13,306 nt of DNA, from positions 1 through 13,306 of the forward strand of contig JACNFQ010000037.1 of the NCBI GenBank assembly GCA_014384545.1, read 5' to 3'. This stretch comes from a bacterium (GTDB lineage: Bacteria; UBP7; UBA6624). Each line of letters begins with the position of its first letter. The first letter of the stretch is position 1. Under the pieces are notes generated by a model. It was given only the letters and a program-made list of their open reading frames with translations, made no database searches and was not told where the DNA came from. A program made the position numbers and the translations under genes. This document shows positions 6,494-13,091 of this stretch, piece after piece.

Positions 6494-7216
6494 ATGTGCT
6501 TGATTGTCGTTGCTGTGGGTGTGCTGGAAGAGAGCCCCTTAGCCCTAGCTTCAAACAGAGAAGAGAGCCCAACGCGCCCTGGAACTCCACCCTTCGTCTG
6601 GGAGCGCCCTTTCTCCCACATCTTCGCAGGACGAGACCCCTTAGGAGGTGGCACTTGGCTAGGGGTAGGGAAGGGTGGGGGGAAGGGTAAAGAGTTGGTC
6701 GTCGCCCTCACCAACCGACCCTACGACCCCCAACCCGCCGAAAGGAGCCGGGGGCTCCTTGTTCGGGATCTCTTGGGAGAGGAGTCTGCCGCCTCGGCTG
6801 CCACCGCTGCCCAGACGGCGTTTAACTCCACCCATTACGACGGTTGCAATCTGGTATTGGCAGACCGAGAAACGACTTGGATCGCCGATTCCGTATCGGG
6901 GGCAACCAAACAACTAGGGGTAGGGATCCACCTCATTGGGTTGGGGGAGGCGAATGATCCAAAAGACAAGCGATTCAAGAAGGTGAGAAAAGTCATGGAA
7001 GCGTATCCGCTTTGTACAGCGGATGATTGGATTACCCACATTCCTGTCCTGCTAAGCGACCATGGAATAGAGAGTATCTGTAGGTGTCAGGCTGAAGGAC
7101 GACCCACGATTTCTGCGGATGTGCTGACATTGGGTAAGCAAGGCGTGCAATGGGTCCATGCCCAAGGTCCCCCATGCTCTACGAAGTGGGAAAAGGTAGG
7201 GAGTACTACCCCTTAA
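6494..7216 (+). CDS. NRDE/TANGO2-family protein (NREE variant)
   Basis: This 240-residue protein belongs to the NRDE (TANGO2, DUF833) family: it starts MCLIVVAV, has LALASNREE (17-24) where the family reads N-R-D-E, then GGGTWLGV (51-58), VVALTNRP (69-76) and SRGLLV (85-90). Cys2 right after Met is conserved and, as I recall, the fold relates to Ntn hydrolases, making Cys2 a candidate nucleophile after Met removal. The family's reaction is not established; the eukaryotic member TANGO2 is linked to heme and lipid metabolism. Two oddities: Asp of NRDE is Glu (E23), and a Gly/Lys-rich insert (60-66) sits where relatives have a short turn, encoded by a G-quadruplex-like run. The ATG follows the preceding TAG directly, so translation is probably coupled. 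The last 11 bases overlap the convergent phosphohexomutase gene. Confidence 0.85.
   Translation: MCLIVVAVGVLEESPLALASNREESPTRPGTPPFVWERPFSHIFAGRDPLGGGTWLGVGKGGGKGKELVVALTNRPYDPQPAERSRGLLVRDLLGEESAASAATAAQTAFNSTHYDGCNLVLADRETTWIADSVSGATKQLGVGIHLIGLGEANDPKDKRFKKVRKVMEAYPLCTADDWITHIPVLLSDHGIESICRCQAEGRPTISADVLTLGKQGVQWVHAQGPPCSTKWEKVGSTTP
6662..6687 (+). other. G-quadruplex-like motif inside the NRDE gene
   Basis: The coding strand carries five runs of at least three G (lengths 4, 3, 3, 6, 3) separated by 1-2 bases, encoding residues 57-65 of the NRDE protein. It meets the usual four-run quadruplex pattern and, being on the non-template strand, would also be present in the mRNA. Whether it folds is unknown. 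Confidence 0.6.
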
Positions 7217-8633
7217 GAGATTCGGCAGCTTGGGCAGCTGTAGCGATAAGGGCATCCACCGCTTTGGCACCACCCTCGGATTCGCTATAGATGCGCAGAA
7301 GGGGCTCGGTTCCACTGGCTCGCACCATCACCCAACCACCCTTCACGCGCACTTTGACACCATCAAGAGTATTCGCAGCGTCTTCCTTGACCCCCAACGC
7401 TTTCGTAAGTGCTTTGGCAAACGCTGGGGTATCGGCTCGTAATCGCTGGGCTACTTCGGGTTCTACTTTTTGATCGCGTCGTTCATAGAAAAAGTCTCCA
7501 TATTTCTTGCGGAAGGTCTTTCGAAGGGCAAAAAGAGGCTTTCGTTCTCGTGCCAACATGCGTAAGAGGAATAGAGCACCCAGCAAGCCATCTCGTTCGG
7601 GGAGATGGAAACCCATCCCAATACCCCCACTCTCTTCCCCTGCGACTATCGATTCGCCGCTGAGCAAAAACTGAGAGAGATGTTTGAAGCCCACAGGTGT
7701 TTCAATAAGGGGAACATCGTGTGCTTCAGCCACCCGAGCCAACCAGTCGCTGGTAGGTAGCGACTTAGCAATGCCCCCCTTTTCAACACCCTCGGGGGGG
7801 TTAAGGAGAACCTCATCCGCGATAATTCCAAAGACCTCTTGAGGCCAAAGAAGATCTCCCCTCTCATCACAGACTGCCAAGCGGTCGCCATCACCATCAA
7901 AAGCCAATCCCACCGTTTTTCCCGCGCGAAGAACGCCCTCTGACAAGCCCTCTAGATTGCGGGGAATCGGCTCGGGGCTTCCCCCCCCAAATCCAGGCTC
8001 TTCAAAGTCTCGAATGCCTGTTATGGCAAGCCGCCCTTCGCCCAAGCCCATCTTTTGTGGCACACCGATTTGAGCACCGTGCATATAGTCAATCAATACA
8101 CGCAATGGGCTCTCTTTTAAGGACTCAAGATCTATCCATTTCTCAAGGGCATCTTGGTAATGGGCAATGAAGTCATCTGTTTCGTGAGGGAGCAACCGGG
8201 TGGTATCTGAAGAAGGGTATTCTGTGGGAATCTCAGCCACAATCTCCTCTACAAGAGTTTGCCCCATTGGGTTTCCATTAGATGCCCGCAACTTGACCCC
8301 CAAGTAGGAATAAGGATTATGACTCGCTGTCAACATCACACCCACATCTCCATCAAGTTCTCTTGTAGCAATACATAGAGCTGGAGTCGGGCTTACACCC
8401 CTAGACAGAGTCACATGGCACTTCTCTGCAAGGAGCGCCTCTGTAGCGATACGGGCAAACTCGCGGGCTTGAAATCGTGTATCGTGCCCCACCACAACCC
8501 TTGCCCTTCGAGATGAAATATCATTCATCCGTCGCCCCACTGCAGACATCAACCTACGGAGGCTATCCTCGGTAAACCCGAACCCGATTTGGGCACGCCA
8601 ACCATCGGTCCCAAAACGGATTTCTTCGCTCAT
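7206..8633 (-). CDS. Phosphohexomutase (phosphoglucomutase/phosphomannomutase family)
   Basis: This is a complete 475-residue alpha-D-phosphohexomutase with all four active-site motifs in order: the phosphoserine loop TASHNP (102-107, S104), the magnesium loop DGDGDR (246-251), the sugar-recognition loop GEESGG (332-337) and the phosphate-binding loop RASGTEP (438-444). N-terminal FGTDGWRA is also typical. It interconverts hexose 1- and 6-phosphates in the cytoplasm, feeding cell-wall, glycogen or nucleotide-sugar synthesis. GEESGG is the glucose/mannose-type loop, so glucosamine mutase is less likely, but choosing between glucose and mannose is beyond sequence reading. Its ATG overlaps the stop of the upstream membrane peptidase gene by 4 bases (ATGA). 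Its stop lies inside the end of the convergent NRDE gene. An 8-G tract (7981-7988) encodes GGG in a loop near residues 216-218. Confidence 0.95.
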   Translation of the reverse strand: MSEEIRFGTDGWRAQIGFGFTEDSLRRLMSAVGRRMNDISSRRARVVVGHDTRFQAREFARIATEALLAEKCHVTLSRGVSPTPALCIATRELDGDVGVMLTASHNPYSYLGVKLRASNGNPMGQTLVEEIVAEIPTEYPSSDTTRLLPHETDDFIAHYQDALEKWIDLESLKESPLRVLIDYMHGAQIGVPQKMGLGEGRLAITGIRDFEEPGFGGGSPEPIPRNLEGLSEGVLRAGKTVGLAFDGDGDRLAVCDERGDLLWPQEVFGIIADEVLLNPPEGVEKGGIAKSLPTSDWLARVAEAHDVPLIETPVGFKHLSQFLLSGESIVAGEESGGIGMGFHLPERDGLLGALFLLRMLARERKPLFALRKTFRKKYGDFFYERRDQKVEPEVAQRLRADTPAFAKALTKALGVKEDAANTLDGVKVRVKGGWVMVRASGTEPLLRIYSESEGGAKAVDALIATAAQAAESLKG

Positions 8634-10909
8634 TTCGCCCCCTCCAGAAAGGTATTTGCCAAACGACGAATCCTACCAAGCCTAGGGCTTCCCACCCAAG
8701 AGTTGTCTAGCCGCTCCAAAGTCAACAATCTATCAACTGTCTGCTGGGGATTAGAGGCATAAGTGCTTTCAGCCCATCCCAACACCTTCGTTCCCATCCA
8801 TCGCAACGCCCAGGGCTCCAGTTCCCCAGCCAAAGAGACGATCTCCGGTGGCGCCAAAGGCGAGCCACAAACCAACACCATCCAAAGATCCCAAGCCTCT
8901 CCTCCATCTTCTACACCCAACAGCAAGGGGCAGGATTCGCTTTCGGGCAATAAGCTTGTAGAGGTGCTCCAGAGGCGTTCGGGAAAGACCTGCCGCCACT
9001 GAGGAAGCCAAGATATTGAGAGACGCCGACTAGGGGAAAGCCCCGGTTCGAAAGGTCCCAATTGCTCCAAGAGATTCACTTCTTGGTCAGGGTCCCAGTA
9101 CGATCGGGATGAAAGGGCAGCGCCTTTCCAAGCATCATCGGGGGCTGAATCCCAACCTAGGTGCCAAATCGTCCGTGCAACCGTCAAATCGTCATGCGCT
9201 CTTTGGCGTGAAGCCGTCAGAGCAGATCCTGTTATTTCTGATGGTTGAAACGGACTCCGATTTAACCATTCCCAAGCCTCTTCCCAATCCACAAGAGAAT
9301 CGGTTTTCCAGAAGCCTCCAAGAGCAATTGACGAAACCAACAATTCGAAGTATCTACCCCCTGGTCGGTTCAGCTTGGGGTCTTCATTGCGAACCATGGA
9401 GATATACTTCTCCCAAGGCGATTCACTATTGATTGCTGTTTGCCACCTCACGAGGCACGCTTCTCGAAACCGGGGTTGAGCGGCATAGAGGCGTTCAGAG
9501 TCCCGGCGGGCCCGCTGGGGCACATCTAATCCTTCAAGATAAAGGCCCCACTCGCTCAAGGCATCTTCGGGCGGCTTGCCGAACGCTTCCTCCCAATCCG
9601 CGTTCGCGTATAGAGCAAGAAAAGCCTCCTTCCCCCGGCTTTGTAAGAGGTACCCCATCAACCCCCCCGAACGCTTGTACGATGTGCGAAAATTCCCCGT
9701 CCAGAAAGCGAGGCCGCCCAAGACTTCAGTGGGCGCTTCTTGCGCCCTCTTGGCAAAGGCTACATGTGCCCATTGCCCTTCATCCGTATCCGTAAACTCT
9801 GCCAAAGCAACCGCTGCCCCCTCCACAATCGTGGTACTCCAGGGCACTCGGAATGGCCAGGGGCCTTTGGAGGCGAGGATGGCGTGAACCATCTCGTGGG
9901 AGAGGTGGGGAATAGAGGGTCGCAAGCTAGACATATGGATCGTTCCTTGCCACGGTTTGACAAAATCAACCCTATTTACACCCGTCCAAAAAAGCTGTTC
10001 ACCCTCCTCCAGCAATAGATGAAGGGTTAGGGGTCGTTCAACCCCTAATCCCAACTTTTCGCGGTGCTCCCTAGCCAACGTAGCTGCCACCATAGCAAGC
10101 CTTTGGACATCTCCCACTTTTTCGGGGTGACGCAGGGACCACCCCTTCGCTGTTGTTACGACGATTTCGGGCTGATTGGCAGGCCATACAGCGACCGTTT
10201 CGCGGCTCGCTCTAAAGAGAATCCCTACCCCCCCGCCAAAAGGGTCTCCCAATAACATCCACGCCAAAACAGCAAACGCTTGACCACGCGCTACCCGTCG
10301 CTTCTTTGCGCCTGACAGATCTTCCCGCCAAATACGAAGAGCTGCCCAGATAAGAACGCCCCATGCAAAGAGAATCGCTTCTGTTCCCTCCCCCCCCTCC
10401 CCACTAGAAAAGTGGAAAGAGAGTTTTCCCGTAACAGGATGGTAGGGTGCCATTCGGGGCCCCAGCAACACCTGCGCACCCGAAAACAACCCCGTCCAAA
10501 GAACGAATGTCCACAACCTCTTACACGCACGCTTCACACCCCCTTTTCCCACCGCACCCAAGACAGCTCCAAGAAGGATTCCTGGGAGAGGTGCCCATAG
10601 GAAGTTGATCCTCATCCCCGTAGGGAGAGGAGGGCACCATGTCGTCAAACTAGGGAGAATAACTAGAGAGATCATGAGAGGGAAGATCAGAAGAAAACCA
10701 CGGAACAATCCGCTCTTGAACCGTGCGCGACGATTCCCTTTCTCCTTTCCAGCAAGAACTCCTGCGACGAGAAATCCCACCAGTGAGAGAATGATGGACC
10801 ACTCTGGAACGGGCCCCCTCATCATTCCCACAGGTAAAAGGAGGAGGAGGGGGGCGATACCTAATCCCACCATCAACCACCCCCATTGTCCACACTTTGG
10901 CATCCTCAT
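8630..10909 (-). CDS. Multi-spanning membrane protein with gluzincin (HExxH) peptidase domain
   Basis: Counting from ATG 10909 (759 residues), the first 235 or so hold about seven hydrophobic segments (near 11-30, 38-54, 68-87, 102-121, 132-150, 177-193, 209-233). A soluble region follows with HEMVH (338-342) and IVEGAAVALAEF 21 residues later (E363), fitting a peptidase-MA-like gluzincin: two His and a downstream Glu bind zinc, and the Glu in HEMVH is catalytic. GGLMGYLLQSRGKEAFLAL and the next helices are also usual there. The final 280 or so residues, rich in Trp, match nothing I know. The frame can extend to TTG 10939, but that would run into the divergent YlbF gene; ATG 10909 has TATCAT 6 bases upstream. 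The substrate is unknown. It is translationally coupled to the phosphohexomutase gene. Confidence 0.8.
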   Translation of the reverse strand: MRMPKCGQWGWLMVGLGIAPLLLLLPVGMMRGPVPEWSIILSLVGFLVAGVLAGKEKGNRRARFKSGLFRGFLLIFPLMISLVILPSLTTWCPPLPTGMRINFLWAPLPGILLGAVLGAVGKGGVKRACKRLWTFVLWTGLFSGAQVLLGPRMAPYHPVTGKLSFHFSSGEGGEGTEAILFAWGVLIWAALRIWREDLSGAKKRRVARGQAFAVLAWMLLGDPFGGGVGILFRASRETVAVWPANQPEIVVTTAKGWSLRHPEKVGDVQRLAMVAATLAREHREKLGLGVERPLTLHLLLEEGEQLFWTGVNRVDFVKPWQGTIHMSSLRPSIPHLSHEMVHAILASKGPWPFRVPWSTTIVEGAAVALAEFTDTDEGQWAHVAFAKRAQEAPTEVLGGLAFWTGNFRTSYKRSGGLMGYLLQSRGKEAFLALYANADWEEAFGKPPEDALSEWGLYLEGLDVPQRARRDSERLYAAQPRFREACLVRWQTAINSESPWEKYISMVRNEDPKLNRPGGRYFELLVSSIALGGFWKTDSLVDWEEAWEWLNRSPFQPSEITGSALTASRQRAHDDLTVARTIWHLGWDSAPDDAWKGAALSSRSYWDPDQEVNLLEQLGPFEPGLSPSRRLSISWLPQWRQVFPERLWSTSTSLLPESESCPLLLGVEDGGEAWDLWMVLVCGSPLAPPEIVSLAGELEPWALRWMGTKVLGWAESTYASNPQQTVDRLLTLERLDNSWVGSPRLGRIRRLANTFLEGAK

Positions 10910-10914
10910 AAAGG

Positions 10915-10921
10915 TATGATA
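10915..10921. promoter_or_regulatory. Overlapping divergent -10 boxes in TATGATA
   Basis: The plus strand reads TATGAT at 10915-10920, 7 bases before ATG 10928 of the YlbF gene. The minus strand reads TATCAT at 10921-10916, 6 bases before ATG 10909 of the membrane peptidase gene. Both would give leaderless mRNAs from one near-symmetric element. No Shine-Dalgarno at a usual distance serves either start, and no strong -35 is seen. Confidence 0.5.
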
Positions 10922-10927
10922 GACCCT

Positions 10928-11281
10928 ATGAGCATTCAAAAGAAAGCGATGGAACTAGGGATTGAGATTGGTAAGAGCCAAGAATTCAAGGCAGCACGCC
11001 GTGCCGAAGAATCTTTGGGCACTGAAGATGACCTCCGCGGACATATGGGAGAAATGCAGGCGCTCCAAGACCAAGCGATGGGCATTCGTTCTCGTGGCAA
11101 CCAAGTGCCCGAAGAGATGGTCAAGAAGATGGAAGGGCTTCAGATGAAGATCGAAGCGAATACGAAATATCAACAGTTCATTGCAACTCAAACCAATCTT
11201 CAGAAAGTCATGGAATCGGTCAACAAAACAATTGGCGAGGGCATGGAGAAGGGTCTAGACAAGAAGATCATCACTCTCTGA
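10928..11281 (+). CDS. YlbF/YmcA-family protein
   Basis: This 117-residue, highly charged all-helical protein fits the YlbF/YmcA (Com_YlbF) family: an N-terminal helix with AMELGIEIGKSQEFKAARRAEESL, a polar linker with RSRGNQVPEEMVKKMEGL, and a second helical hairpin with TKYQQFIATQTNLQKVMESVNKTIGEGM. In Bacillus the relatives YlbF and YmcA join YaaT in a complex that steers RNase Y and affects sporulation, competence and biofilm. Whether that role holds here is unknown. Upstream in-frame starts exist (TTG 10886, ATG 10916), but 10928 gives the expected family N-terminus and has TATGAT exactly 7 bases before it. Its TGA overlaps the ATG of the adaptor gene by one base, tying it to the export operon, which is an unusual partnership. 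Confidence 0.8.
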   Translation: MSIQKKAMELGIEIGKSQEFKAARRAEESLGTEDDLRGHMGEMQALQDQAMGIRSRGNQVPEEMVKKMEGLQMKIEANTKYQQFIATQTNLQKVMESVNKTIGEGMEKGLDKKIITL

Positions 11282-12435
11282 TGAATCGGTTTCTACCCCT
11301 GCTCCTTCTCCCTTTCGCGGCTTGCTTGAAGTTCGCCAAAGAAGAGAAGGTTGAATTTGATCTAGATACGATCCAAGTTTCCTCGCTTGTAATCAGTCGG
11401 TCTGTGGTCGCGTATGGGAGCCTCTCTCCCCTGACCCAAGTCGAGATAAAGAGTGAGGCTTCGGGCTTGGTAGCGACGATGGATGTAGAGGTGGGCGATC
11501 GGGTTGAAGCGGGGCAGATCATTGTCAGCCTTGACCGCGAAATCCTAGAAAGTCGCTTCCGTCAGCAAGAAGCCGTTCTGCTTCAAACTGAAGCAAGCTT
11601 GGGAACAGCCCAGATTGAACTAGAAGCATCCGAACGCGATTTGACCAAACTTCAACGGTTGGTGGATGAGGGGTATGGCACCGTTGACGAGTTGGCTCGT
11701 GCCCAAGACCGATTGGAACGAGCCCACCTTTCAGTGGCATCTGCACAAGCGAGTAAGGACCAATCTGCGGAATCGGTCTCCTCGGCACAAGATGATTTGG
11801 ACAATGCTACCATTCCTTCCCCACGAAACGGTGTTATCTTAGCGGTCTATGTAGAAGAAGGCTCTGCAGTCGCATCTGCTACAAGTGGTTTGGGGAACGG
11901 CACCCCCATTGCTTTGGTGGGGGATATGACGGTCATGAAGTTCTTGGGCTTGGTGGACGAAACCGAGATTGGGAAACTCCAAGATGAAATGGAAGCGAAT
12001 GTCAATGTCCAAAGCTATCCCGAAGATTCATTCCCTGGAACGCTCCAACGGATCTACCCCATGGGGCAGAACCAAGGAGGTGTCGTAAGTTATCAGGTAG
12101 AGATTCGGATTCCTAACCCCGACCGAACCCTTTTGCCAGGGATGACGGCAGAAGCTCGCTTCATTACCAGTTCTGAAGAGATGATGGGACTACCCGACTC
12201 TGCCTTGGTCTTTGAAGAAGACAAGGCTTTTGTTTGGGTGATGCGAGCTCCCGAAGATGACCCCGAAGGGGAACCCGTACCTAAGAAGGTCAAAGTGGAG
12301 ATTGGGTTTATTGGGGATGAGGCCGTAGAGATTCTCTCGGGTGTAGAAGCGGGAGAGTTTGTGGTGGACAGACCAGGCACAGAGATGGATGCACTTTCTC
12401 CTGTCAAAGTCCGCATGAGCCGTCGCCGGCATTGA
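11281..12435 (+). CDS. MacA-like periplasmic adaptor (HlyD/RND-MFP family), probable lipoprotein
   Basis: This 384-residue membrane-fusion protein begins with a short signal ending PFAAC (11-15); C15 would be lipidated after type II cleavage, although F at -3 is not ideal. The first lipoyl half is 52-85 (VEIKSEASGLVATMDVEVGDRVEAGQ), a coiled-coil hairpin fills about 86-176, the second lipoyl half is 177-215 (ATIPSPRNGVILAVYVEEG), and the beta-barrel is about 216-297 with YQVEIRIPNPDRTLLPGMTAEARF. A C-terminal membrane-proximal domain ends in SRRRH. In MacAB-type pumps this protein links the inner-membrane permease to an outer-membrane TolC-like duct; no such duct gene lies in the window. It overlaps both neighbours (TGATG before, TTGA after), so stoichiometric co-expression with the ATPase and permease is likely. 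The substrate is unknown. Confidence 0.9.
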   Translation: MNRFLPLLLLPFAACLKFAKEEKVEFDLDTIQVSSLVISRSVVAYGSLSPLTQVEIKSEASGLVATMDVEVGDRVEAGQIIVSLDREILESRFRQQEAVLLQTEASLGTAQIELEASERDLTKLQRLVDEGYGTVDELARAQDRLERAHLSVASAQASKDQSAESVSSAQDDLDNATIPSPRNGVILAVYVEEGSAVASATSGLGNGTPIALVGDMTVMKFLGLVDETEIGKLQDEMEANVNVQSYPEDSFPGTLQRIYPMGQNQGGVVSYQVEIRIPNPDRTLLPGMTAEARFITSSEEMMGLPDSALVFEEDKAFVWVMRAPEDDPEGEPVPKKVKVEIGFIGDEAVEILSGVEAGEFVVDRPGTEMDALSPVKVRMSRRRH

Positions 12436-13091
12436 TTCAACTCCAAGGCATTTCAAAGGTTTACCAAACCGGGAAGGTCTCCTTTGAGGCTCTTAAAGGA
12501 GTAGATGTCACCATTCATGAAGGGGAATCGGTCGCCATTACGGGTCCGTCTGGTTCAGGCAAGAGCACCCTGATGCATATCATCGGTCTCTTAGATAAGC
12601 CGACGCAAGGCACCTATCACTTGGACGACAAGGATGTGAGTCAACTGAAGGCAAACCAGTTGGCAAAGATTAGGAATGAGAAGATAGGGTTTGTCTTCCA
12701 GAGTTTTCATCTTCTTTCGGGCGCTCGTGCTTGGGAAAATGTCGCCTTGCCCCTGATTTACGGGGGGGTAAAAGGGGCATCCAGAAAGGAACGCGCAATT
12801 GATTCCCTCAAAGAAGTCGGGTTGGGTCCTTGGGCTCTCCACAAGAGCAACGAACTGAGTGGTGGACAGATGCAGAGAGTCGCTGTCGCGCGTGCTTTGG
12901 TTTCCAAGCCACGTCTCCTTTTGGCGGACGAACCGACGGGGAACTTGGATAGTAAGACCAGTGCGGAAATCCTTAAGTTGCTTGATGATCAACGGGCAGA
13001 CGGCACCACACTAATCATCGTCACACACGATCACGAAGTCGCCGACCAATGTGGTCGAACAATCCACCTCTTAGACGGAAGAGTCGTCTGA
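12432..13091 (+). CDS. ABC transporter ATPase, MacB/LolD type
   Basis: This is a complete 219-residue nucleotide-binding subunit with Walker A GPSGSGKST (38-46), Q-loop Q90, signature LSGGQMQRVAVARAL (142-156), Walker B LLLADEP (162-168, catalytic E167), D-loop NLDS (171-174) and switch H199 in VTHD. Length and the opening IQLQGISKVYQTGKVSFEALKGV are typical of the LolD/MacB/FtsE branch, which powers FtsX-type permeases from the cytoplasm by mechanotransmission rather than carrying substrate through the membrane. The start is a TTG that overlaps the adaptor's TGA (TTGA, 4 bases); no ATG occurs before the Walker A motif, so initiation probably relies on coupling. Its own TGA overlaps the permease ATG by one base. 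Confidence 0.94.
   Translation: MIQLQGISKVYQTGKVSFEALKGVDVTIHEGESVAITGPSGSGKSTLMHIIGLLDKPTQGTYHLDDKDVSQLKANQLAKIRNEKIGFVFQSFHLLSGARAWENVALPLIYGGVKGASRKERAIDSLKEVGLGPWALHKSNELSGGQMQRVAVARALVSKPRLLLADEPTGNLDSKTSAEILKLLDDQRADGTTLIIVTHDHEVADQCGRTIHLLDGRVV

Follow-up and report, generated by a model that had tools for sequence, protein, structure and literature searches.

Bacterial promoters that drive transcription in both directions owing to the symmetry of the -10 element have been described (Warman et al., 2021; PMC12825309; PMC10268837), as the initial annotation of the locus studied here had noted. In symmetrical bidirectional promoters, the divergent start sites lie 18, 10 or 23 bp apart (PMC10268837). 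The 18-bp class is defined by a reciprocal arrangement of -7T and -11A, and a spacing of 18-19 bp is the commonest among the published cases (PMC10268837; PMC12825309). Separately, leaderless genes of Deinococcus-Thermus and Actinobacteria carry TANNNT a few base pairs before the ATG, mostly lack a -35 element and coexist with genes led by a Shine-Dalgarno (SD) sequence (Zheng, 2011, PMC3160421; PMC12340547; Cortes, 2013, PMC3898074). Closely juxtaposed divergent promoters were called common in Mycobacterium tuberculosis, in which transcription starts were mapped at both start codons of the divergent pair Rv1129c/Rv1130 (prpD), albeit this pair was not described as sharing one -10 (PMC3898074). 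In the present analysis, a parallel emerged in the culturable Thermus thermophilus HB27: the annotated ATGs of the divergent pair cobT/TT_RS10165 on pTT27 (L170, 4483-4511) stand 24 bp apart and are preceded, at 7 and 6 nt, respectively, by TAAGCT and TACCCT, which overlap by TA. In the literature searched, we found neither a single -10 yielding two leaderless mRNAs nor any leaderless gene described for the candidate phylum UBP7.

We analyzed a stretch of 13,306 nucleotides (hereafter the window), which is contig 80 of a metagenome-assembled UBP7 genome (1.39 Mb, 79% complete). The collection searched contained three genomes of this phylum. The divergent start region in the window resembles the described bidirectional promoters in its overlapping -10 hexamers on opposite strands, the reciprocal -7T/-11A and a predicted start spacing of 18-19 bp. 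It differs from them in that the predicted start sites are the start codons themselves, so that both RNAs would be leaderless, and in that no -35 signal was visible in 220 aligned promoters of the genome. The TANNNT shortly before the ATG is shared with the leaderless genes of Deinococcus-Thermus and Actinobacteria, as are the missing -35 signal and the presence of SD-led genes alongside, whereas the -10 consensus of the UBP7 genome is TAGRAT. The T. thermophilus pair, for which the annotated codons are taken as the start sites, belongs to a 23-24 bp configuration in contrast to the 18-19 bp seen here. Both bidirectional promoters and leaderless genes are thus already known, and it is their putative union in one -10 that would be without a precedent in the literature searched.

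Leaderless expression in the UBP7 genome

The genome survey covered 1.355 Mb and 1218 genes called with a simple hexamer model, the starts of which were not curated. Upstream of the called ATGs, TANNNT peaked where the gap was precisely 6 or 7 nt (135 observed versus 22.5 expected at the called starts). The hexamer occupied these two gaps before 31% of the genes in a divergent context (coding-only starts gave 33%), 13-16% of same-strand heads, 8% of the genes inside operons and 1-4% of internal ATGs. When only strong -10 hexamers were counted, the divergent genes showed 17% at gap 6 and 9% at gap 7; the remaining gaps reached 0-4%, and internal ATGs 0-0.5%. SD cores were found before 25-44% of the genes. 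A disguised AGGA Shine-Dalgarno was ruled out as the source of the TAGGAT peak, since TAGAAT (40 versus 1.6 expected) and TAGACT (9 versus 0.4 expected), both free of an SD core, peaked at the same gaps, and T flanking AGGA on both sides was concentrated at gaps 7-8. Thus, the signal is that of a -10 rather than an SD effect. Leaderless initiation, the premise of the initial annotation, is well supported as a common, mainstream mode of expression in this genome. As a separate observation, the gene for an MFS transporter in the window may start at ATG 3242, 7 nt past TAGGAT, and not at ATG 3218.

Geometry of the divergent start region

The features of the region are listed in Table 1. The gap, AAAGGTATGATAGACCCT, is flanked by CAT on the left (10907-10909) and ATG on the right (10928-10930), and the starts of the two divergent operons are 19 bases apart. 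Both the 18-base separation and the distances of the two hexamers from the start codons had been given correctly in the initial annotation, but the two hexamers overlap in five bases (10916-10920) of their seven-base union, not in six of seven as it had counted. The two gaps of 6 and 7 nt coincide with the genome-wide peak; TANNNT thus stands at the distance preferred by the genome before both starts. The -7T and -11A fall on positions 10920 and 10916 on the plus strand and on 10916 and 10920 on the minus strand, i.e., reciprocally. If six bases are placed between hexamer and start, the predicted start sites are 18-19 bp apart, the minus-strand one on the A of the ATG (10909) and the plus-strand one a single base before the ATG (10927). 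No SD core (GGAG, GAGG or AGGA) was found within 18 nt of either ATG. On the plus strand, TATGAT is the sole TANNNT between positions 10701 and 10960; on the minus strand, TAGGGT, TATCAT and TACCTT are the only ones between 10870 and 11200, with none in 10929-11200.

Table 1. Features of the divergent region, in coordinates of the window.
Feature	Position	Strand	Remarks
Phosphohexomutase, second minus-strand gene	7206..8633	-	PF02878-PF02880, PF00408
Membrane protein with HExxH (HEMVH) peptidase-like motif, first minus-strand gene	8630..10909	-	Absent from the sister genus
Intergenic gap between both start codons	10910..10927		18 bp
TATGAT, -10 predicted for the YlbF-HlyD-ABC operon	10915..10920	+	7 nt before ATG 10928; predicted start 10927/10928
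TATCAT, -10 predicted for the peptidase/phosphohexomutase operon	10916..10921	-	6 nt before ATG 10909; predicted start 10909
TAGGGT, rival minus-strand -10	10923..10928	-	Leader would be ~7 nt
YlbF/YmcA-family protein (117 aa), first plus-strand gene	10928..11281	+	PF06133, E 5.7e-19
HlyD-type membrane-fusion protein	11281..12435	+	PF16576/PF13437
ABC transporter ATPase	12432..13091	+	PF00005
ABC permease, 5' part (gene cut by the contig end)	13091..13306	+	Gene call; L008/L009 have an orthologous permease in matching gene order

The first minus-strand gene encodes 759 amino acids and sits between genes that adjoin each other in the sister genus. No Pfam family was detected above the cut-off in the protein, and its relatives are very distant (21-27% identity, in other phyla); those homologues were therefore dropped as a guide to its start codon. 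The candidate start codons are ATG 10909, 10903 and 10873, of which the gene model prefers 10873 on coding score alone. The ATG of the phosphohexomutase gene overlaps the stop codon of the peptidase gene and is preceded by an SD-like GGAGG.

Conservation in the sister genus

The divergent pair of phosphohexomutase and YlbF-HlyD-ABC-permease was kept in both genomes of the sister genus, in which the YlbF orthologues are 56% identical to that in the window and the peptidase gene is absent from this divergent pair. The gap of the sister genus, GTTTTTATCCTAATAGAGATTATGATAAACAAATT, is 35 nt long and holds TATGATA. No difference was found in this gap between the two sister species, while the surroundings differ at 471 of 3342 sites (~14%). 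TATGATA is therefore conserved between the genera at this gene pair, as judged by the sequence comparison, although not at a constant distance from the start: TATGAT lies 9 nt before the YlbF ATG in the sister genus but 7 nt in the window. The alignment of the gap across relatives, proposed in the initial annotation, thus recovered the element and not its spacing. Nor did the comparison show the sharing of one -10 by two genes to be conserved, as the phosphohexomutase gene of the sister genus has a minus-strand TAGGAT of its own 6 nt before the ATG and is not accompanied by a peptidase gene. In the window, the latter gene may have landed behind an older YlbF promoter and be using its reverse face, or the change may have gone the other way. 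This TAGGAT in the sister genus (L003, 1454-1488; L004) contains AGGA at an SD spacing of 7, and could act as a -10 in DNA and as an SD in a longer RNA.

Evaluation of the proposed shared -10 and its alternatives

We moderately favor one shared -10 box for two operons that are predicted to be leaderless. TATGATA (10915-10921) would be a -10-only, sigma-70-type element bound by RNA polymerase in either orientation; one orientation would start transcription at 10927/10928 and yield a leaderless YlbF-HlyD-ABC mRNA, and the opposite one would start at 10909 and yield a leaderless peptidase-phosphohexomutase mRNA. The geometry, the leaderless signal and the conservation of TATGATA were computed; the start sites, the use of the minus side and any competition are what we infer. 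The two sides differ in strength. Because the sister genus retains TATGATA in a gap that is invariant between its two species, the plus-strand promoter is very likely real. The predicted use of TATCAT is weaker, at a level of somewhat probable: in comparison to TAGRAT, TATGAT is a tolerable match and TATCAT a poor one. In the position weight matrix (PWM) of the genome, TATCAT scored -3.88 and TAGGGT -1.31. TATCAT occurred three times at gaps 6/7 across the genome versus 0.47 expected. The bidirectional element proposed in the initial annotation is therefore partly upheld, by both gaps falling on the genome-wide peak and by the reciprocal 18-bp geometry, but weakened by the poor match of TATCAT.

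That poor match would be accounted for if the plus side alone worked and TATCAT were its incidental reverse face, the peptidase operon then being driven either weakly or from a promoter off the consensus inside the YlbF gene. The symmetry of TATGATA makes a minus-strand match cheap, and the plus-strand box is conserved in the sister genus whereas the peptidase gene is not. Nevertheless, nothing better is available on the minus strand, where TANNNT is lacking throughout 10929-11200, ATG 10909 stands exactly at the modal gap of 6, and 31% of the divergent genes in the genome look leaderless; we thus regard this explanation as unlikely. It is still less likely that two nested promoters are present, the plus-strand one from TATGAT and the minus-strand one from TAGGGT (10928 to 10923) with a leader of ~7 nt before ATG 10909. 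TAGGGT outranks TATCAT in the PWM, but G is rare at hexamer position 5 (9 of 160), a gap of 13 is not enriched upstream of the starts in the genome, and a 7-nt leader is too short for an SD.

Quite improbable, finally, is that neither mRNA is leaderless, with transcription starting upstream in the opposite coding regions or with translation of the plus-strand gene starting at ATG 10916 from the ribosome site AAAGG. ATG 10916, which lies inside TATGAT, is in frame (MIDPMSIQ...) and preceded by AAAGG, but we rejected it as the plus-strand start, because AAAGG is only 1 nt away and thus too close, and the orthologues align from about ATG 10928. The genome-wide leaderless signal and the lack of plus-strand TANNNT in the 215 bp upstream also speak against leadered transcripts.

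Rarity of the arrangement

In-frame ATGs 18-20 bp apart were found in 3 of the 105 divergent pairs of the genome, and the pair in the window alone has a TANNNTA centred between its two ATGs. Of 934 genome-wide occurrences of CAT-N17-19-ATG, four (0.4%, this site included) fit CAT-N5-6-TANNNTA-N5-6-ATG, a pattern that did not occur in the reversed genome used as a control. Given TATGAT on the plus strand, the minus-strand TANNNT needs just A10921 in addition, and the two matches should therefore not be counted as independent of each other. Judging from the base frequencies of the genome, no form of TANNNTA other than TATNATA would place the favored A in position 5 of both hexamers.

Possible reciprocal linkage and significance

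A shared -10 box could not be occupied by two polymerases at once, for steric reasons that we consider sound. From this, the initial annotation had concluded that the two operons would be reciprocally linked, and an obligatory linkage is not supported as stated: five tested bidirectional promoters of Escherichia coli showed no competition at basal activity and interfered only when one direction was strongly activated (PMC12825309), implying that any linkage would be conditional. The footprint argument could extend to the many pairs of the genome with starts 24-46 bp apart.

A shared -10 with both starts at the start codons would be about the smallest divergent control region to be expected, and, with no leader, there would be no room for a ribosome site, a riboswitch or a leader-binding regulator. 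Whether two operons reading from one element affect one another, and what sets their ratio, are the questions raised. The genome-wide pattern in an uncultured phylum and the similar pair in the tractable T. thermophilus make them testable.

Other close divergent pairs

Under a lenient joint start model, 35 of the 105 divergent pairs looked leaderless on both sides; as the model uses the -10 motif, such pair counts lean towards leaderless, a lean from which the position-specific peak at gaps 6/7 is free. Both hexamers scored well in 30 of the 35, often with starts 17-46 bp apart, and TATCAT keeps the site in the window out of these 30. The two starts of the 35 pairs were a median of 41 bp apart, versus 163 bp in the pairs with neither side leaderless (Mann-Whitney p 0.001), and the starts were within 50 bp of each other in 20 of the 35. 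The site had been put forward as an extreme case. Its centred TANNNTA was found in no other pair; with about 20 divergent pairs having two leaderless starts within 50 bp, it is less singular than proposed and probably the extreme of a general leaderless habit of the genome.

In most close pairs, each gene has a TAGRAT box of its own, the two boxes lying back to back. Besides the site in the window, the boxes may overlap in three pairs, though in different registers: TAGGATTCTA at 17 bp (two pairs) and ATCCTAGGAT at 24 bp (one pair), with TTG or GTG serving as one of the starts, so that the shared -10 itself may not be unique to the window. One of the 17-bp pairs (L127, 9746-9763; G000:C99) comprises a UvrD-like helicase gene (minus strand, ATG) and a tyrosine-recombinase-like gene (plus strand, GTG), both named from their N-termini with no family search behind them. 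Having TAGAAT and TAGGAT both at gap 7, it makes a better case for a shared box than does the site in the window. The other two are L107, 11849-11866 (G000:C78; 17 bp) and L106, 2332-2356 (G000:C77; 24 bp). We tentatively suggest that UBP7 possesses a class of ultra-compact divergent regions, in which -10-only promoters serve leaderless operons 17-46 bp apart; in a few of them (the site in the window, G000:C99, C78 and C77), the operons would share one palindromic -10 and compete for a single polymerase site, with no untranslated DNA for other control. Dual leaderless boxes were present in both genera at one or more further orthologous pairs of divergent genes, among them L016.
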